Shown here in pieces: positions 5,449 to 14,489 of a DNA stretch of 50,571 bases. How positions within the stretch are numbered: position 1 is the stretch's first letter; every line of letters begins with the position of its first letter. The stretch is taken from assembly GCA_018434325.1 (NCBI GenBank), contig JAHDPO010000045.1, positions 1 through 50,571 on the forward strand. The letters run 5' to 3'. The notes under the pieces were generated by a model. The model was not told the DNA's origin. It ran no database searches and saw only the letters and a program-made list of their open reading frames with translations. The translations under genes and the position numbers were made by a program. The DNA is from Clostridia bacterium. Lineage in GTDB: Bacteria > Bacillota > Peptococcia > DRI-13 > UBA5745.

Positions 5449-6375
5449 TTAAAACTTGTATTTGTTGCGCAGATACTGGGTGTCCAAAGCCGCTAGACGG
5501 GTGGCGCCGGTCTGCAGGCTCAAGACAGCGATTCCCGCCACATAAGGCAAAAGCTGCAGCATCTCCGGCGGGATGCCGATGATGCCGTTGATTTGCAGCT
5601 GCAACTGGACGGCGTCAAAAAAACCCAGCAATAAAGCGGTGCCCAGGATCCCTTTCGGCTCCCACTTGCCCATTTTCACCGCGATTACCGCCAGCATGCC
5701 TTTGCCGGCAATCATGCCCTCAAAAAAGCGGTCCAGCTGCCCTAAGGACATATAGGCGCCGGCAATACCGCAAAGCAGGCCGCAGATCAGCACGCCGCTG
5801 TAGCGCATTTTCCAGACGTTGATGCCGGCTGTCTCCACGGTACGGGGATCATCGCCGACCATCTGTACCCTGAGACCGTAGGGCGTCCGAAAAATCACGA
5901 AATAGGAGATTACGGCAATCAGGCCGCCCAGATAAACCAGCGGCGAAAGAGCGCCTAAATATTTGCCCAATACCGGCACTCCCTGCAAAATTTTGGTGGT
6001 CTGCAAGGCCGCCACGTTAGGCGTAAAGGTGGAGCCAAAAATTGAAAGGCATAGAAACTTCGTTACGCCGTTAAACAGCATGGTGATGCCCAAACCGCTG
6101 ATGGCATGAAGGCCGCCGAATTCCACGCAGATCAAAGCATGGAGAGCGCCGGCCACCAAGCCTCCGACCATACCGCAGAACACGCCGATCCAGGGATTGC
6201 CGGTGTAATAAGAGCCCAGCACGGCGGCAAAGGCGCCGCTGACCATCATGCCCTCAGCTCCCAGATTGAGGATACCCACCCGCTCGCAGTACATATTGCC
6301 CAGACCGGCAATAAACATGGGGGTGCTCAGCCTGATCACCGACAGCAGCAATACTACAAAAAAGCTTACAGTCAT
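5449..6375 (-). CDS. ABC transporter permease, nucleoside/BMP type (second permease)
   Basis: Integral membrane protein of 308 residues with about eight to ten hydrophobic segments. It belongs to the permease family shared by ribose-type and BMP-dependent importers: the conserved GLGNMYCERVGILNLGAEGM segment lies near residues 24-43. It would pair with the other permease to form the translocation channel. Its ATG overlaps the stop of the upstream permease gene by 4 bp (ATGA), implying translational coupling. It corresponds in position to NupQ/YufQ of the Bacillus guanosine importer. It is the last gene of the operon. Confidence 0.92.
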   Translation of the reverse strand: MTVSFFVVLLLSVIRLSTPMFIAGLGNMYCERVGILNLGAEGMMVSGAFAAVLGSYYTGNPWIGVFCGMVGGLVAGALHALICVEFGGLHAISGLGITMLFNGVTKFLCLSIFGSTFTPNVAALQTTKILQGVPVLGKYLGALSPLVYLGGLIAVISYFVIFRTPYGLRVQMVGDDPRTVETAGINVWKMRYSGVLICGLLCGIAGAYMSLGQLDRFFEGMIAGKGMLAVIAVKMGKWEPKGILGTALLLGFFDAVQLQLQINGIIGIPPEMLQLLPYVAGIAVLSLQTGATRLAALDTQYLRNKYKF

Positions 6376-7445
6376 TGGCCTGCCTCCTTCCCCGCTTTGC
6401 CTGAGCGGCGGCGGTTCAGCAAATATTTGACGAAATAATTAGCGGCAATGCACAAAATCAGGGAACCCTGGATCACGGAGATGATTTCGTCGGAGATGCC
6501 GACCTTGGCCTGCATATTTAAGGAGCCGGTTCGCAAAGCGCCAAAGAGCAGGCTGCCCAATATGCTGATCAGCGGGCTGCCGCCGGAAAGCAGAGCGATA
6601 GGTATGCCGTCATAGCCGTAGCCCGGCGAAAAATCGATATAAAGCCGGTGATGATTGCCCAAAATCTCCAGGCCGCCGCCGACGCCGGCCAAGGCGCCGC
6701 TGAGCAAAAGCCCCAGCAGCATGTATTTATTAATATCGATGCCGGCATAGCGGGCAGCTTCAGGGCTCAACCCCACTGCCCGCATTTCGTAGCCCGCCGT
6801 AGAACGGCGGAAAAACAACTCTAAAACGATAGCAACAGCCAGCACAATCAAAACGGCGATGGTCAGCCGGTAAGGCGGCCCAATCAAATAAGGCAGCCGG
6901 GCGCTTTCCATAATCCTGTCCGTGGAGGGCACCAGAGCATTATCGGAGGCAAAGGCGTCGAGAACGAAAAATTGCAGCAAAAACCTGGCGATATTGTTCA
7001 TGAGGAGCAGTACAACCAGAAGATTAATGCCCCGCTTCACCCGCAAGAGTGCGGGAACCAGCGCAAAAGCCATGCCCCCCAAGGCCGCCGCCAGAATAGC
7101 CGCCGGAATATGGACGGCGGCAGGTAGCCCCTTCAGGAAAATGCCGGCCATAGTGGCGCCAAAAGCCCCCATGGCCAATTGGCCTTCCGCCCCGATATTG
7201 AAAACATTGGCTTTGGTGGATACGATCACCGCAAAGGAGGCAAAGGCAATAGGCACTGATTTTTTGACGGTATTGACAACGCCGCTTGTGGAACCGAAGG
7301 CCCCGGCAAACAAGGCCCGGTAAGCCTCCAGAGGGCTTTTGCCCATAAAGCTGATCCAGATGGCGCTGAATAAAAAGGCGATCAAAATCAGAATCAAAGG
7401 CACCAGAGCGTCTTTGAGCCGAAGCTTGAGTGCGTTTATCTTCAT
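6372..7445 (-). CDS. ABC transporter permease, nucleoside/BMP type (first permease)
   Basis: Integral membrane protein of 357 residues. It begins with a basic segment and a long hydrophobic helix (ALVPLILILIAFLFSAIW), followed by the family segment ANVFNIGAEGQLAMGAFGA near residues 79-97. The family includes NupP/YufP and the permeases of purine nucleoside importers. The ATG overlaps the ATPase stop codon by 4 bp and its own stop overlaps the next permease in the same way, so the three proteins are probably made in fixed ratio. Confidence 0.92.
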   Translation of the reverse strand: MKINALKLRLKDALVPLILILIAFLFSAIWISFMGKSPLEAYRALFAGAFGSTSGVVNTVKKSVPIAFASFAVIVSTKANVFNIGAEGQLAMGAFGATMAGIFLKGLPAAVHIPAAILAAALGGMAFALVPALLRVKRGINLLVVLLLMNNIARFLLQFFVLDAFASDNALVPSTDRIMESARLPYLIGPPYRLTIAVLIVLAVAIVLELFFRRSTAGYEMRAVGLSPEAARYAGIDINKYMLLGLLLSGALAGVGGGLEILGNHHRLYIDFSPGYGYDGIPIALLSGGSPLISILGSLLFGALRTGSLNMQAKVGISDEIISVIQGSLILCIAANYFVKYLLNRRRSGKAGKEAGQ

Positions 7446-8974
7446 GAGGCCGGCCCCTCCTTTCCCTCCAGGGAGCTGCCCACCATCATCATACCGATCT
7501 GTTCTCTGGTGGCCGTGGCGCTATCCAATATTCCCATCAGGCGGCCGTCAAAGAACACGGCGATCCTGTCGGAGAGCATCATCAATTCATCCAGCTCCAA
7601 AGAGACCAGCAGCACGCTGCCCCCTTTATTGCGATGATTGATCAAGATATTATGGATGGCTTCAATAGCGCCCACATCAACGCCTCTGGTGGGCTGGTCC
7701 GCCACAATCAGCTGGGGCCGGCTGCCCATTTCCCGGGCTACAACCACCTTTTGCTGATTGCCGCCGGATAACATGGACACCCGCACCTGTTCGCCGGGAG
7801 TACGGATGTCATATTCTCTGATCCTTTTTTGGGCGTCGCTGATCACGGCCTTGCTGTTGACCGCTATCTTATATTGACAGTATTCGGGCCGCCGCTGAAA
7901 GCCCAAAACGAGATTTTCCGCTATGCTGAAATCCATGACCAGGCCGTGTTTCTGGCGGTCCTGGGCAATAAAGCCGATGCCCTCTTTCTTGCGCTGGGCC
8001 ACTGTTTTGCCGGTGATATCCCGGCTATGATAAACGACGCTGCCGCCGGAAGGCGTCAATACGCCCGCCACGATCTCCGCCAATTGGGTCTGACCGCTGC
8101 CGTCAATGCCCGCCAGGCCTAATACCTCACCCTTATGCAAAACCAGGGATATGCTTTTTAGTATTTGCCGTCCGGCGGCGGCATAGACGATATCCGTCAG
8201 GCGCAAAGCCTCTTCTTTGCCGGGAGCGCTTTCCTTGCGGCCCCCTAATTGGACATCCCGGCCCACCATCAGCCTTGTCAATTCCGGTATATCCGTCTCC
8301 GCCTTGCGGAGGGTGGCTATATGCTTGCCGCCCCGCAGCACGGAAATGTCATCGCTGAAATCCATTACCTCTTCCAGCTTGTGGGTGATGATGATGATCG
8401 TTTTGCCGCCTTCTTTCAATTGACGGAGGATCTCCCCCAGATCATCGATCTCCTGAGGCGTCAGCACAGCGGTGGGTTCATCGAGAATAATAATTTCGGC
8501 GCCCCGGTAAAGGGTCTTGACGATTTCCACCCGCTGCTGCATGCCTAAGGAAATATCCGCCACTTTTTTGGCGGGGTCTACTTGAATATTATGCCGGCTG
8601 CAAACCTCGGCCACTTTGGCGATAGCGGCCTTGCGGTCATAAAGCAGCCCTTTTCTCGGCTCCTTGCCCAGGACCACATTATCGGCCACCGTAAGCCGCG
8701 GTACCAGCATAAAATGCTGATGAACCATGCCGATACCGCAGTCAATGGCGTCGGTGGCGCTGCCAAAAGCCTGCTTTTGGCCGTTGATCAGAATCTCTCC
8801 CTCATCCGGCTTATGGAGACCGTAAAGGATGTTCATCAACGTAGATTTGCCGGCGCCATTCTCGCCAATAATGGCATGAACGGTCCCGGCTTTGATGGCA
8901 ATATCGATATGGTCGTTGGCCAGTACGGCGGGAAACCTTTTGGTTATGCCCCGCATCTCAACTGCGTAAACCAC
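7442..8974 (-). CDS. ABC transporter ATP-binding protein, double ATPase, nucleoside/BMP type
   Basis: Cytoplasmic protein of 510 residues with two ATPase domains in tandem, as in sugar and nucleoside importers. The first domain has a full Walker A (GENGAGKST), the signature ISLGMQQR and Walker B with ILDEPTAVLTP. The second has a degenerate P-loop (GIDGSGQTQLAE), the signature LSGGNQQK and VADQPTRGVDVG. This one-active, one-degenerate arrangement is typical of the family. The reading frame is open upstream to 9034, but I chose the GTG at 8974 because GGAGG sits 7 bp before it. The gene follows the BMP gene by about 65 bp and overlaps the permease gene. Confidence 0.93.
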   Translation of the reverse strand: MVYAVEMRGITKRFPAVLANDHIDIAIKAGTVHAIIGENGAGKSTLMNILYGLHKPDEGEILINGQKQAFGSATDAIDCGIGMVHQHFMLVPRLTVADNVVLGKEPRKGLLYDRKAAIAKVAEVCSRHNIQVDPAKKVADISLGMQQRVEIVKTLYRGAEIIILDEPTAVLTPQEIDDLGEILRQLKEGGKTIIIITHKLEEVMDFSDDISVLRGGKHIATLRKAETDIPELTRLMVGRDVQLGGRKESAPGKEEALRLTDIVYAAAGRQILKSISLVLHKGEVLGLAGIDGSGQTQLAEIVAGVLTPSGGSVVYHSRDITGKTVAQRKKEGIGFIAQDRQKHGLVMDFSIAENLVLGFQRRPEYCQYKIAVNSKAVISDAQKRIREYDIRTPGEQVRVSMLSGGNQQKVVVAREMGSRPQLIVADQPTRGVDVGAIEAIHNILINHRNKGGSVLLVSLELDELMMLSDRIAVFFDGRLMGILDSATATREQIGMMMVGSSLEGKEGPAS

Positions 8975-9039
8975 TTGTTTTCCTCCGTCAGAAAGATAAG
9001 CCGGGCAGAAGAACGCCGCCCGGCTCTTGGTCACTCTTA

Positions 9040-10104
9040 TTATTTGGCAACGTAGGCGTTGTAGGAAGCTTCATCGGTGGGAGGTACAATCTCACCGGAA
9101 ACGATCTTCGCCTCGATTTCCGCCATCTTGTCCTTGATCTCCTGAGGAATCTGATCGCCGATCAGCGGAGAGATCCGGATGCCGGTAGCGCCGTCCTTGA
9201 GACCTGCCTTAATTATACCGGAAGGCATTTCACCGGCAATAAATTTCTTGCAAACTTCATTGAAGTATTCGTCGGTCTTGATGATGTGGGAGGCCAGAAT
9301 ACGCTCCGGGGAGAGATTGAACTGGCCGGTGGCCGCACCCATGGCATAATTGCCTTCGGGCAAGGATTCCACTGCCTGATAAACACCGTTGGCAGCGCCG
9401 CCGGCAAAGGCCTGAACGATGACCATACCCTCGCCGTACATCTGCAGAGCCAATTCCTTAGCCTTAGCAATGTCCTGGAAATCGCCTACATAGGATTCCA
9501 CAGCCTGGCCGCCGGCATAGTGGGCGCCGGCCTGGAAGCTGTAGCGGCACATCTCCAGATCGTTGATCCGCATACCGCCGATCCAGCCTACCTTATTGAC
9601 TCCGGCCAGATGCTCGCTCATCATCACCGCAAAAGCGCCGCCGATGAAACCGGCCTGAGGCTCTTCAAACTGGATGGACGTGCAATTGTCGTAGCCGTCT
9701 ACCGTACCTTTATTCAGGATGTAATGCGTATTGGGGAAGTCTTCCAAAACCTCGGGCATCAGCTCGCTGACGGTACCGCCCATGATCACCATGTCATAAC
9801 CCTGCTCGCCAAAGTTTCTGGCATGAATGGCATGGTCGCTGAGCTCAGACACTTCCACCTTCGTCACCGGGATACCCGTATCGGCAGTAAAAGCATCAAC
9901 GGCAGCTTTCAGCGCGTCATTAAGACCGTTGTCGCCAAATTTGCCGGCAGCTACCAGACCGATTTTCCACTCTTTGGCAGGAGCGGCAGGCTCAGTGGAC
10001 GAAGCGGCGGGCTCGGTGACGCCCGGCTCGGCCGGTTTAGAACCGCAAGCTGCCAGGCTAAATACCAGTAAGACCATCAGAAAAAGCGAAACCATTTTTT
10101 TCAT
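9040..10104 (-). CDS. BMP-family substrate-binding lipoprotein (nucleoside importer)
   Basis: Exported binding protein of 354 residues. It has a lipoprotein signal peptide ending in FSLAAC, so Cys20 is lipidated and the protein is held on the outer face of the membrane. A short Ala/Pro/Glu-rich linker follows, then a PnrA/TmpC-type bilobed domain (IGLVAAGKFGDNGLNDALK, EQGYDMVIMGGTVSE, NKVGWIGGMRINDLE). Known members bind purine nucleosides; a few bind other ligands, so the exact substrate is open. The open frame starts with a TTG at 10125, but the ATG at 10104 follows the GAAGGAG site and begins the signal peptide. It is 45 bp downstream of the MBL-HD gene, in one operon. Confidence 0.92.
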   Translation of the reverse strand: MKKMVSLFLMVLLVFSLAACGSKPAEPGVTEPAASSTEPAAPAKEWKIGLVAAGKFGDNGLNDALKAAVDAFTADTGIPVTKVEVSELSDHAIHARNFGEQGYDMVIMGGTVSELMPEVLEDFPNTHYILNKGTVDGYDNCTSIQFEEPQAGFIGGAFAVMMSEHLAGVNKVGWIGGMRINDLEMCRYSFQAGAHYAGGQAVESYVGDFQDIAKAKELALQMYGEGMVIVQAFAGGAANGVYQAVESLPEGNYAMGAATGQFNLSPERILASHIIKTDEYFNEVCKKFIAGEMPSGIIKAGLKDGATGIRISPLIGDQIPQEIKDKMAEIEAKIVSGEIVPPTDEASYNAYVAK

Positions 10105-10149: not shown

Positions 10150-11625
10150 TTATTTGTACTGCTTGAGAAGGCTGTCGTGGAGCCCCCCCTCAACTGCGCA
10201 TTCGCCGTAGAGCGACTGCAGATAGTTGATCATAAAACGATGCCTCTCTTCGGCAATAGCTTTAGCCGCAGGCGTATTCATCAGCTCTTTGAGATGTAAA
10301 AGCTTTTCATAAAAATGATTTACCGTACTGGACTTGACGGCTCTGTCCTTATATTCGGCTTTGCCCATCTTCGTCCGGGGAGACAAGTCCGGATCAAAAA
10401 GCAAATTGCCCAGAGCGGAGCCAGTAGCAAAAGCCCGGGCTACGCCGATGGCCCCTATGGCATCCAGCCGGTCGGCATCCTGAACGATCTCACCCTCCGC
10501 CGTTTTCATGGGACTGGGGCTGCCCGTACCTTTGAATGAAAGATCCAGGATAATCTCTTTGACGTGCTCAATATCCGCCTCTCCAAGACCCAGGGTCTTA
10601 AGCCAGGCGGCAGCCGCCCGGGGACCGGCCGTCTCGTCGCCGCCGGCAAACTTCCAATCCTCAATATCATGCAGCAAAGCTGCCAAAGCCACAATACGCA
10701 TGTCCACCGGCTTTTCGCTGACCCGGCCCAGCTTGAGGGCCATCCGGTAAACCCGCCGGGTATGATGATAATCATGCCCCGTAGTCTCCGCACTTTGCAG
10801 TTCTTTCATATGGGTGATAGTCTTCCGAACCAGCTCATCAGCTTCCGGATCGTATTGGCCGCCGGCAGCTTTTGCGGTTTCTCCGCTTTCTTCCTGACCG
10901 AGGTCAAAATCCATCCGCTGATGCTGCCGCAAAAACCGCAGCCCCTCCTGCAGGAAAGGCGGCGCTAAAAGGCCGTGGTGCATCAAATAGAGGCAGTCCT
11001 TAATATGCTGCGGATAGTCCTTGATCTTCTCAAAGCCGGCATGGACAGGCGAGCCATTTAAAGCGCAATCATGGAAAATGACTCTAATCCCCTGAGCATA
11101 AAGGCTTTCCAGAAGCTCCAAATCCGCCACCATATCGGAAGTATAAAAGAGTTTCTCGGCAATGACCAGGCCGCAGCTGAACTTGCCGGCTACGTGGTTC
11201 GTCTTGACCCAGCGGGCGGTGATGCCGCCGCAGAGGTCAAAAACCTGGTTTTCCGCCGGTGAAACCACATGAAAAAAATCCTCCTGACAGCTTGTCCCCG
11301 GCTGATCCGAGCTCAATCCCCCAGAAAGATAATTGTCCCACAGCGTCTGGCGCAGGGGAGCAGGCACAATCAGCTCCAAGGGCTGACTGATGAAGTATTT
11401 CGTATAAAGAGCCAAGGGCTCCAGCCCGCCGGCATGGTCAAAATGAATATGGCTGAGAAAAACCCGCCGGATGTCTTTTACTGACAGTCCCAGGGAGCTT
11501 AAGCTTTCCCAGGCAGTGAGTCCGCAGTCGATCAGCGCTTTTTCCCCGCCGGCCTCCAGCAGGGCGTTATTGTTATATACACCAGGCGAAAAGCCGTTTC
11601 CTACACCTAACATAGTGATATGCAT
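10150..11625 (-). CDS. Metallo-beta-lactamase / HD-domain fusion hydrolase
   Basis: Cytoplasmic protein of 491 residues that joins two metal-dependent hydrolases. The N-terminal half is an RNase Z-like metallo-beta-lactamase fold: MLGVGNGFSPG, then SHIHFDHAGG (the HxHxDH motif) near residues 62-71, a later Asp in YTSDMVAD and a His in LMHHGLL. After an acidic linker, the C-terminal half is an HD phosphohydrolase of the YedJ/YpgQ type: HHTRRVYRMA, ALLHDIEDW and QDADRLDAIGAIG. Such HD enzymes act on nucleotides or phosphodiesters. The ATG at 11625 was chosen for its GGGAGGG ribosome site. It is the first gene of the nucleoside-transporter operon, so a role in processing an imported or product nucleotide is plausible. 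The substrate is unknown. Confidence 0.88.
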   Translation of the reverse strand: MHITMLGVGNGFSPGVYNNNALLEAGGEKALIDCGLTAWESLSSLGLSVKDIRRVFLSHIHFDHAGGLEPLALYTKYFISQPLELIVPAPLRQTLWDNYLSGGLSSDQPGTSCQEDFFHVVSPAENQVFDLCGGITARWVKTNHVAGKFSCGLVIAEKLFYTSDMVADLELLESLYAQGIRVIFHDCALNGSPVHAGFEKIKDYPQHIKDCLYLMHHGLLAPPFLQEGLRFLRQHQRMDFDLGQEESGETAKAAGGQYDPEADELVRKTITHMKELQSAETTGHDYHHTRRVYRMALKLGRVSEKPVDMRIVALAALLHDIEDWKFAGGDETAGPRAAAAWLKTLGLGEADIEHVKEIILDLSFKGTGSPSPMKTAEGEIVQDADRLDAIGAIGVARAFATGSALGNLLFDPDLSPRTKMGKAEYKDRAVKSSTVNHFYEKLLHLKELMNTPAAKAIAEERHRFMINYLQSLYGECAVEGGLHDSLLKQYK

Positions 11626-11647: not shown

Positions 11648-11690
11648 ATAGTATCCTATAGTCAGCCTGAGACGATAGGACATATGTCCT
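11648..11690 (-). promoter_or_regulatory. Operator AGGACATATGTCCT and promoter of the MBL-HD / transporter operon
   Basis: The perfect 14-bp palindrome lies at 11677-11690. On the minus strand a -10-like TACTAT follows at 11653-11648. The implied start near 11641 puts the palindrome centre at about -42, the position of a CRP-type activator site in a class II promoter. The palindrome with its flanking T-run is identical over 20 bp to that at 12445-12464, on the other side of the CRP/FNR gene. Confidence 0.7.
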
Positions 11691-11719
11691 TTTTTGGGTA
11701 AAAAGGGCGTAAAATCCGT

Positions 11720-12385
11720 TTACTGATAAACGGCCAGCTTCTTTAGTTTTTCGGGATTAACAACTTGCAGGCTGCCCCGCCCCACCCTTTTTAACATATT
11801 CTCCTTTTCCATTTCCGCCAGCAAGCGTCCCAAATGCCGGGGCGTAATGCCAAAATGCTCCGCCAGCTTGCTTTTATGATAAAGCAGCTCACCGCTCCCC
11901 TGATCCAGCAGGTAACGGGCCAGACGATTTTTTGCCGGATAAAGCAGAGTAAAGGAATAGCTGGTGGAAGAGCGAAAGAGCTTTTCAATAGTGCTGCTGC
12001 AAGCCAGCTTATAAAAAGCCACATTGTTTTCCAAATACTGCTCCGTCAGAGCCATGGGGATGCCGATGAGGGTGACGGCGGTTTCGGCCACCACATTATG
12101 CAATGTATCCCTTTTTAGCAGTATTTCGATATCGCCAAACAAGCTGGGAGGCTCCTCCAAAGCAATACTGATCATTTTGCCGGTTTCCGACAGGGAAATG
12201 ACCCGCAGCTTTCCCACCGCTAAAATGGTGAAATGGTTTACCGGCTCGCCGCTGCGCATCACCATCTCGCCCTTTTCATAATGAAACAGCGAGGCCCCCG
12301 CCTCCACTTCCGGAACAAAAATCTCGTTTAATTTGTATTTATCAATGTAGCCTTTCAGCTTTGCGGCATTTTTTTCACTTTTCAT
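11720..12385 (-). CDS. CRP/FNR-family regulator, YeiL-like
   Basis: DNA-binding regulator of 221 residues. Residues about 25-135 form a cyclic-nucleotide-binding-type beta barrel (GEMVMRSGEPVNHFTILAVG, PPSLFGDIEIL), but there is no cysteine set for an Fe-S cluster. Residues about 165-215 are a winged helix (KLAEHFGITPRHLGRLLAEM). The recognition helix, with PRHLGRLL, resembles the YRHLL helix of E. coli YeiL, whose gene lies among nucleoside genes. Copies of AGGACATATGTCCT lie 61 bp before its own start and 29 bp beyond its stop codon, in front of the transporter operon. It is probably the regulator of both and of the divergent gene. The inducing ligand is unknown. Confidence 0.9.
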   Translation of the reverse strand: MKSEKNAAKLKGYIDKYKLNEIFVPEVEAGASLFHYEKGEMVMRSGEPVNHFTILAVGKLRVISLSETGKMISIALEEPPSLFGDIEILLKRDTLHNVVAETAVTLIGIPMALTEQYLENNVAFYKLACSSTIEKLFRSSTSYSFTLLYPAKNRLARYLLDQGSGELLYHKSKLAEHFGITPRHLGRLLAEMEKENMLKRVGRGSLQVVNPEKLKKLAVYQ

Positions 12386-12445
12386 ATCCTGCTCTGTCTC
12401 CTTCCGGCTGTCGGCGCCGGCCTTTGAGTCTTTAAGATTTCAAGT

Positions 12446-12473
12446 AGGACATATGTCCTTTTTTCAGTATACA
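12446..12473. promoter_or_regulatory. Operator AGGACATATGTCCT between the CRP/FNR gene and the SAHase-like gene
   Basis: The palindrome at 12446-12459 is followed on the plus strand by a T-run and a -10-like TATACA at 12468-12473. It lies 61 bp before the divergent regulator start and 104 bp before the SAHase-like start, so it could serve both promoters. Nearer the plus-strand gene, GGCAAATTATGAT is repeated directly (near 12513 and 12531). Confidence 0.65.
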
Positions 12474-12563
12474 AAATACGTTATGGTTATGCCAGTAGAA
12501 TTTGCCGGGCTGGGCAAATTATGATCAATGGCAAATTATGATTAAGAAAACAGGAGGGCCATC

Positions 12564-13739
12564 ATGCAATCCATCATCGACGACAAGAGCCTGGCGGAGG
12601 CCGGCCAGCAAAGAATGGGCTGGTTCCGGGAACAGATGCCCTTAATTACCGCCATCAAAAAAACCTTTGAAAAAGAAAAGCCCTTTCAGGATCTCAATAT
12701 TGCCATTTGCCTCCATGTGGAGCCGAAGACCGCTTATTGGATTGAAGCCCTTTTGGCCGGCGGCGCCAGGCATATTTTCCTTGTGGGCTGCCTAGGCACC
12801 ACCAAGCCGGATACCGCCGCTTTCCTGGCGGCCAATGAACAGGTTACCGTGTTGGCCAAAGAAAAGGACACCATGGAGGATCACCGGTGCTACCTGGAAA
12901 TGGTCATGGCCGAAAAGCCTCAGCTCTTTTTGGACAACGGCGCCAGCCTGATTCTGGCCTACCATCAGCGGGAGCGGGATTGGCTGCCTTTGGGCGCCAA
13001 TGAGGAAACCCGCACCGGCCGGCTATTGATCGACGACTCCGGTTATAGTCTTAAGTTCCCCGTCATCGTCATCGATGATTCGCCTTTAAAAAAATTACTG
13101 GAAAACGCCGTCGGCGTCGGCCAGTCTGTAGTGGACGGCCTGATGCGTTCCACCAGCCTGCTTTTAGGCGGTAAGCGCATTCTGATCATTGGTTACGGCT
13201 ATTGCGGCAGCGGCACCGCCGGCAAGCTGCGGGCCATGGGCGCTCACACCAGCGTCTACGATATCGACCCCGTATATTTGCTGAAAGCCAAGGCCGACGG
13301 CCACCGGGTCAGCGAAGACCTGCCGGCTCTGATTGCCGAAGCCGATATCATCATCACCTTGACCGGCCGTTTCAACATCCTGACGGCGGAGCACATCCCC
13401 TGCTTCAAGGACGGCGTTATTTTAGCCAATGCCGGCCATTTCGGCTTCGAGATTGATGTTCCCGGCCTGTCTTCCCATGCAGAGGCAATCGAAACCGTCG
13501 GCAAAGGCAAGCAAATGCTGTCCTTCCGTGATAAACGCGTCTTTTTATTGGAAGAAGCCAATCCCCTCAATTTATCTGCCGGCGACGGCAACCCCATTGA
13601 AATCATGGATCTAGGCCTCTCCCTTCAAGCCTTATGCGGCGCCCGCATCGCTACAGACCACAGCCAACTGATCACCGACGTCCAGCCGGTACCCAGGGAT
13701 ATCGATTGCCTGGTCAGCCGCCAAATGATCAATTTATAA
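12564..13739 (+). CDS. Divergent S-adenosylhomocysteinase-like NAD-dependent enzyme
   Basis: Cytoplasmic protein of 391 residues related to SAH hydrolase but well diverged. Retained by eye: His51 in CLHVEPKTA, the NEETRTG segment (Glu147-Glu148), Lys176 and Asn181 around DDSPLKKLLEN, the NAD-binding IIGYGYCGSGTAG near residue 208, and NAGHFGFEID. Changed relative to classical enzymes: the active-site Asp is Glu180, the usual YGCRES is VGVGQS, the HP of NLGCATGHP is NP (NLSAGDGNP), and the C-terminal YRY tail is absent. It may cleave a related thioether nucleoside or act on a different nucleoside. ACAGGAGGG is a clear ribosome site. It is divergent from the CRP/FNR gene and shares its operator. 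Confidence 0.85.
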   Translation: MQSIIDDKSLAEAGQQRMGWFREQMPLITAIKKTFEKEKPFQDLNIAICLHVEPKTAYWIEALLAGGARHIFLVGCLGTTKPDTAAFLAANEQVTVLAKEKDTMEDHRCYLEMVMAEKPQLFLDNGASLILAYHQRERDWLPLGANEETRTGRLLIDDSGYSLKFPVIVIDDSPLKKLLENAVGVGQSVVDGLMRSTSLLLGGKRILIIGYGYCGSGTAGKLRAMGAHTSVYDIDPVYLLKAKADGHRVSEDLPALIAEADIIITLTGRFNILTAEHIPCFKDGVILANAGHFGFEIDVPGLSSHAEAIETVGKGKQMLSFRDKRVFLLEEANPLNLSAGDGNPIEIMDLGLSLQALCGARIATDHSQLITDVQPVPRDIDCLVSRQMINL

Positions 13740-14322
13740 TCAATTTATAAAAAATTTACGATTATTTGCAGCCAATTTATGCTTTGATCCCAACAGCAGC
13801 TTGAAATGGGCCGTTGCCTGCTCCTTAAGGTCAAAGCCGGGATAACGGATACACCATTCATAACTGACGCCCCGGATGGCCATGACCAAATGCCGGGTCA
13901 GTTCATCGGCCGGCAGATTATTTTTAAATTCTCCCTGCCGGATGCCTTTAGCCAATATCTCTCTGATAAACCTTCTTCATGTTTTCATAGCCGATTGTGC
14001 CCTCCAGCACATCGGCTATTTTTGCAATTAAGGCAAGCATTACCTCAGCAGACGGCATATCGGAGGGAAGATCCGCCAAAAAGGCTTTATAATCCGTATC
14101 GACCTGGGCGGCATAATCGGCAATAACCAGGGCAATAAGTACATCCTTCGATTCAAAATGCACATAAAAGGCGCCCTTGGTAACGCCGGCTTCATCGGTA
14201 ATATCCTCGACGCCTACAGCATCGAAATCCTTTTCCTTAAATAGCTTCTGGGCACTTTCATATAATTTCTTTCTCGTCTCCGCCCCTTGCTCTTTTTTCT
14301 TGTTCGGCTTTTTTGTTCTCAC
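13740..14322 (-). pseudogene. TetR-family regulator, frameshifted
   Basis: Two overlapping frames together make one TetR protein. The first, from a GTG at 14322 behind AGAGGAGGG, encodes the DNA-binding domain (ETRKKLYESAQKLFKEKDFD, then ITDEAGVTKGAFYVHFESKD) and ends with VYQRDIG and a stop. The second resumes with EILAKGIRQGEFKNNLPAD and completes the ligand-binding domain. The break falls in a GAGAGA run near 13958-13964; restoring one GA would give a continuous QREILAKG. Decay, phase variation or a sequencing error are all possible. It is divergent from the SLH protein gene, which it may once have controlled; TTAGTAA is repeated directly (14389 and 14402) between them. Confidence 0.8.
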
Positions 14323-14489
14323 CCGCTTGTCCCTCCTCTTGAACTCCCGATAAGGGTATAGTACAATATTACACAATGCTAAACGATATTAGTAAACATG
14401 GTTAGTAATAACGGTTGTTCTATTTGCACTATAGCATCGGCAAGCTTTAACTTCAAGGCTACAGAGCGGCTAAGAACGGAGGAAATAAT

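Follow-up and report, generated by a model that had tools for sequence, protein, structure and literature searches.

An identical palindrome on both sides of a YeiL-like CRP/FNR gene: the probable operator of a local regulon in a Clostridia bacterium

The locus and its two palindromes

The window, by which we mean the whole stretch of 50,571 nucleotides from a Clostridia bacterium that was analysed, holds a CRP/FNR regulator gene between two sets of genes. On its left and on the same strand lies an operon for a metallo-beta-lactamase/HD fusion protein (MBL-HD) and an ABC transporter of nucleoside type, and on its right a SAHase-like gene is read in the opposite direction. The features are as follows.

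5449..6375, minus strand: ABC permease 2
6372..7445, minus strand: ABC permease 1
7442..9034, minus strand: sugar/nucleoside-type ABC ATPase with two ATP-binding domains
9040..10104, minus strand: PnrA/BMP-family nucleoside-type substrate-binding lipoprotein
10150..11625, minus strand: fusion of a metallo-beta-lactamase (Apyc1-like) and an HD phosphohydrolase, ATG at 11625
11648..11653, minus strand: TACTAT, the predicted -10 element for the MBL-HD operon, which begins 30 bp from the centre of site 1; conserved in the congener G004
11677..11690: predicted operator copy 1, AGGACATATGTCCT, between the regulator gene and the MBL-HD/transporter operon, ahead of the latter; conserved in G004
11720..12385, minus strand: YeiL-like CRP/FNR regulator, 221 aa (Pfam domains above cutoff, YeiL profile below cutoff, tree)
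12446..12459: predicted operator copy 2, AGGACATATGTCCT, between the regulator and the SAHase-like gene; conserved in G004
12466..12471, minus strand: TATACT, the predicted -10 element for the regulator gene (promoter CTGGCA-18-TATACT); conserved in G004
12482..12487, plus strand: TATGGT, the predicted -10 element for the SAHase-like gene, which begins 29 bp from the centre of site 2; conserved in G004
12564..13739, plus strand: SAHase-like protein of a divergent paralogue subfamily

The original prediction was that an identical 14-bp palindrome flanks the regulator gene, that the identity reaches 20 bp with the T-run, and that the window has no further copies. All of this was recovered: AGGACATATGTCCT is exact at 11677-11690 and 12446-12459, the 20-bp identity, TAGGACATATGTCCTTTTTT, covers 11676-11695 and 12445-12464, and beyond both palindromes the window gives 0 further matches even at up to 3 mismatches. 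The core is GGACA-N2-TGTCC, with the 14-bp geometry of FNR sites. Nor is the palindrome scattered over the genome, for the exact word occurs only twice in the whole 3.83 Mb, both times at the regulator locus. The base composition predicts about 0.013 copies per 3.83 Mb and the reversed control word has 0 occurrences in the same genome; two copies 769 bp apart are therefore not due to chance. A genome scan for AGGAC-N4-GTCCT with one mismatch gave many matches, yet fewer than the reversed control, and none of them except the known sites has the full ATAT centre, so that a wider regulon in this genome is unsupported.

A scan of genome contigs had the Clostridia bacterium MAG G004, a congener, as its sole match. 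The regulator of G004 is 87% identical and both sites are kept. Its first site reads AGGACATATGTCCCGTTTT, which is a single change, and the T-run is lost there; the T-run is thus outside the conserved element. In the alignment, conservation covers the DNA between site 1 and the beginning of MBL-HD as well as the DNA that runs from site 2 into the promoter of the SAHase-like gene. The interval between site 2 and the start of the regulator, in contrast, is not conserved and contains a deletion, which indicates that MBL-HD and the SAHase-like gene are the regulated units. The MBL-HD protein was absent from 398 genomes of the phylum at E 1e-55 and was seen in the genus of the window only, so its link to the operator concerns just the two congeners. 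As to its domains, the fusion joins a domain of the Apyc1-like cyclic-nucleotide phosphodiesterase family to an HD phosphohydrolase of the YedJ/YpgQ type.

The regulator and the distribution of its putative operator

The regulator belongs to the CRP/FNR superfamily according to PF00027 (cNMP_binding, 51.6 bits, cutoff 27.5) and the C-terminal PF13545 (HTH_Crp_2, 41.5 bits, cutoff 27). The alignment shows Asp in place of the Glu72 of CRP phosphate binding and no Arg at the Arg82 position, and the N-terminal region is without cysteines such as those of the FNR oxygen sensor. A YeiL-like recognition helix had been proposed, and what stands is an R-H-L-x-R helix together with kinship by profile, YeiL being the best named relative over the full length (2e-25). 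The relative is only a distant one: the regulator scores 89.6 bits against NCBIfam YeiL (NF007707), which has a curated cutoff of 180, and 165.9 bits was the best score among the homologues tested. It should be kept in mind that the name YeiL as used here denotes kinship and not formal membership. The YeiL-like group is defined here by the R-H-L-x-R helix and by GGACA-N2-TGTCC near the regulator gene, both of which are found in the window; R183, H184, L185 and R187 are invariant across 8 diverse members of the group.

E. coli YeiL is listed among the transcription factors of unknown function (PMC9308461). The two proteins fall in the same wider profile group (2e-25), share R-H-L in the recognition helix and are both adjoined by nucleoside genes; E. 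coli yeiL lies beside rihB-nupX and psuT-psuG-psuK, which bears out the nucleoside link that had been claimed for it. The proteins are only 23% identical, however, and the operator of the window is absent from the 16 kb around E. coli yeiL. The yeiL-rihB intergenic region (L088 7287-7303) has instead a different palindrome with FNR spacing, TATGAGAAATCTCATA, which is a candidate operator of E. coli YeiL.

The original prediction implied that the palindrome should accompany orthologues of the regulator. Besides its retention in G004, this was examined with distant homologues, mostly of 25-35% identity, from the 398 phylum genomes and two family samples. With up to 2 mismatches the word was found beside 17 of 26 homologues in the phylum and beside 26/28 and 30/30 in the family samples, i.e., beside at least 73 of 84 when the three samples are pooled, counts which are statistically non-independent as the family samples include related genomes. 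Shuffled upstream regions reach this level in at most 0.3% of cases. When the first family sample (n = 28) was scored separately, 20 sites were exact, 4 had one and 3 had two mismatches. None of 17 CRP/FNR loci outside the YeiL-like group has a site at up to 2 mismatches. The exact word occurs 24 times in the 398 phylum genomes, against 4 times for the reversed control, and is held by 8 of the 19 genomes with a homologue (E 1e-12) compared to 11 of the 379 others (Fisher p 3e-7). A consensus of 79 sites gives the half-site (A)GGACA(T), in which the five core bases are 99-100% conserved.

There are exceptions in both directions. Three homologues with the same helix (L043, L065, L121) are nevertheless without the site. 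Relatives with other helices mostly lack the word or have variants of it, e.g., TGACATATGTCA at L060, and a relative in G122 has the helix R-S-I-N-R, yet an exact site. Some exact copies were set aside as chance occurrences: the one in G010 lies within an HMG-CoA reductase-type gene, and those in G280, G183, G358 and G138 appear to be coding or repeated. In G183 (L097-L100) there are four exact 14-mers, three of them with the common flanks TTCAGGACATATGTCCTCAG or the reverse complement; these copies look like parts of a repeat that has nothing to do with the regulator. The exact site in G042 is located about 260 bp ahead of a deoD-like gene, and a -10 at the right distance is absent. A separate observation concerns G067 (L132 7251), where an exact site and a perfect TATAAT at offset 30 precede a 5'-nucleotidase gene. 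This case is suggestive only, as the closest regulator in G067 has a different helix.

Spacing to the promoters and the explanations weighed

The site ahead of the MBL-HD operon had been placed about 42 bp in front of its start and called ideal for a class II activator. The distance is right for the predicted transcription start and wrong for the likely ATG at 11625, which is 58 bp from the centre of site 1. The class II placement itself gained statistical support from 30 related sites oriented towards their operon, in which a -10-like hexamer was taken as one with at least 4 of 6 matches. In 26 of the 30 such a hexamer begins at a distance of 29 or 30 bp from the centre of the site; in 2000 shuffles the number averaged 3.95 and never exceeded 11. 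An offset of 29/30 puts the centre at -41.5/-42.5, which is the class II position of CRP/FNR activators. The window has offset 29 for the SAHase-like gene and 30 for MBL-HD, both predicted from -10 elements which match only 4 of 6, and G103 has an identical TATGGT, at the identical offset, ahead of its SAHase-like gene.

The site resembles that of FNR and CRP at class II promoters in being 14 bp long, with two 5-bp half-sites around 4 bp, xxGAx and a centre at -41.5. It differs from the FNR site in its half-site, AGGAC rather than TTGAT, and in the helix of the regulator Arg and His replace the Glu and Thr of CRP/FNR; the regulator is also unlike FNR in having no iron-sulphur cysteines and unlike CRP in having no equivalent of Arg82. 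The PrfA box of Listeria is TTAACA-N2-TGTTAA. When only the DNA boxes are compared it has the same spacing and the same central ACA-N2-TGT, but the outer bases are TTA/TAA instead of AGG/CCT. Neither the 14-mer nor the 12-bp core is mentioned in the open-licence paper texts that were searched, and the motif may be recorded elsewhere.

We propose that a dimer of the YeiL-like CRP/FNR protein encoded between the two copies binds AGGACATATGTCCT, and that this operator is common to much of the subfamily. That AGGACATATGTCCT is the operator of the neighbouring regulator we hold to be very probable, given how closely the word follows the regulator. A dimer at -41.5/-42.5 would then activate two transcription units in the class II manner, a step which we regard as likely from the spacing. 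One unit would comprise the MBL-HD phosphohydrolase and the PnrA-type nucleoside ABC importer, the other the divergent SAHase-like gene, and both together would constitute a local regulon by which nucleosides, and adducts such as S-adenosylhomocysteine-like compounds, are taken up and broken down. Binding and activation are what we infer from these signals. The predicted promoter of the regulator might put operator 2 over roughly the positions +1 to +14 of the regulator's own transcript, from which it could be guessed that site 2 both activates the SAHase-like gene and damps, or even represses, the regulator. Taken as a whole, the explanation by a YeiL-like operator, a class II activator and a local nucleoside/adduct regulon is in our judgement a probable one.

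Alternatively, the regulator could use the same operator to repress one or both promoters until a nucleoside-type ligand relieves the repression. Repression is found in many operons for uptake and breakdown, the -35 region is overlapped by the site, and the predicted promoter of the regulator places site 2 near +1 to +14, all of which would suit a repressor. The fixed spacing of -41.5 in 26/30 sites is, however, the geometry of a class II activator, and CRP/FNR proteins mostly activate, so we find repression unlikely. It is very unlikely that the palindrome is instead the site of another transcription factor controlling these genes. Such a factor might be considered because binding of the regulator is a prediction from sequence and because a few of the exact copies in other places stand without a regulator, but across the YdcZ, SAHase-like and PNP contexts the regulator subfamily is the one shared neighbour. 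Since it is the regulator that these loci share while their targets vary, the word belongs to the regulator.

The T-run recalls an intrinsic terminator or an RNA element, and a pattern scan does score both copies as terminator-like on the plus strand, with a hairpin energy of about -6 kcal/mol. This reading was rejected and has hardly any probability left: no plus-strand gene ends at either copy, the T-run is gone at one G004 site, conservation at two of the four loop positions equals that of the stem, and a terminator would make no sense where the element is found in the homologues, 29-30 bp ahead of a -10. A chance duplication or a repeat element has a negligible likelihood. Two genome copies where 0.013 are expected speak against it, and the retention of the palindrome next to distant homologues, over a large evolutionary distance, already rules it out.

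The SAHase-like gene and the targets in other genomes

The SAHase-like protein passes NCBIfam NF004005 (SAHase) with 334.7 bits (cutoff 275), while it scores 293.9 bits against a cutoff of 497.6 for TIGR00936, and it is about 35-40% identical to the ordinary SAHases of the phylum. It differs from these in having GNP for the GHP histidine motif, KxxxEN in place of KxxxDN and a truncated end without the C-terminal tail, as well as in its linkage to the regulator and the operator. The GNP and the truncated end are found in the whole linked subfamily (the window, L046, L049, L103, L108, L109, L111 and L137), which adjoins a YeiL-like regulator in every locus seen. As the GHP histidine and the tail are missing, the substrate is possibly a different one, and SAH hydrolysis should be taken as a lead that these motifs qualify, not as a result.

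Six genomes (G362, G401, G469, G478, G517 and G565) repeat the arrangement around operator 2, with the regulator divergent from a SAHase-like gene of 57-59% identity to that of the window and a site with 1-3 mismatches between the two genes. In G469 the SAHase-like gene is followed by genes for a purine nucleoside phosphorylase (PNP), a purine-type permease and a nucleoside:H+ symporter. G103 has an exact site before a 41%-identical SAHase-like gene without an adjoining regulator, and in G122 the exact site precedes the related regulator and a nucleoside phosphorylase. In the tree the regulator of the window clusters with the SAHase-linked regulators and two further ones, with support of 98/92.

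Most Bacilli-type genomes present another picture, since there the site leads into an operon of a YdcZ-type transporter, the regulator and a second transporter; a YdcZ gene was found in 51/58 loci of the two family samples, which carries no information about nucleosides. The regulon of the subfamily is thus not purely nucleoside-related. The nucleoside link of the original prediction is supported by a SAHase-like/PNP/transporter operon beside a distant homologue, but YdcZ transporters are the most common targets, and the nucleoside theme comes from the genes that adjoin the regulator in a minority of subfamily members. From these neighbours we infer the kind of inducing ligand and of substrates, and that the regulated genes serve nucleoside or SAH-type salvage seems to us a reasonable expectation, held with less assurance than the mode of activation. 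The idea of a probable local regulon around the palindromes is, for its part, favoured by the tracking, the spacing and the neighbour genes taken together.

A near-invariant operator in a large part of the YeiL-like group, in Bacilli-type genomes as well as Clostridia, offers a route to prediction of regulons and a direct one to binding assays and a search for the ligand. It may also tie an uncharacterised SAHase paralogue and the MBL-HD phosphohydrolase to nucleoside salvage. One could speculate, although we find it rather doubtful, that one CRP/FNR subfamily has kept a nearly invariant operator while the targets were swapped between YdcZ and SAHase-like/nucleoside genes, which would mean that its members have a common type of small molecule as their signal. 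If so, this shared small molecule would be a nucleoside or a nucleoside adduct, one could predict what class of substrate the uncharacterised YdcZ transporters handle, and the SAHase-like subfamily would be a new enzyme of nucleoside-adduct breakdown.

Two minor observations may be added. A TetR-type regulator ORF at 13948-14376 of the window codes for 142 aa, compared to 210 aa in the congener (L024 10989-11621), and is possibly truncated or frameshifted. A Nudix hydrolase gene lies beside the same operator or regulator at L090 7408 and L093 6565-7855.
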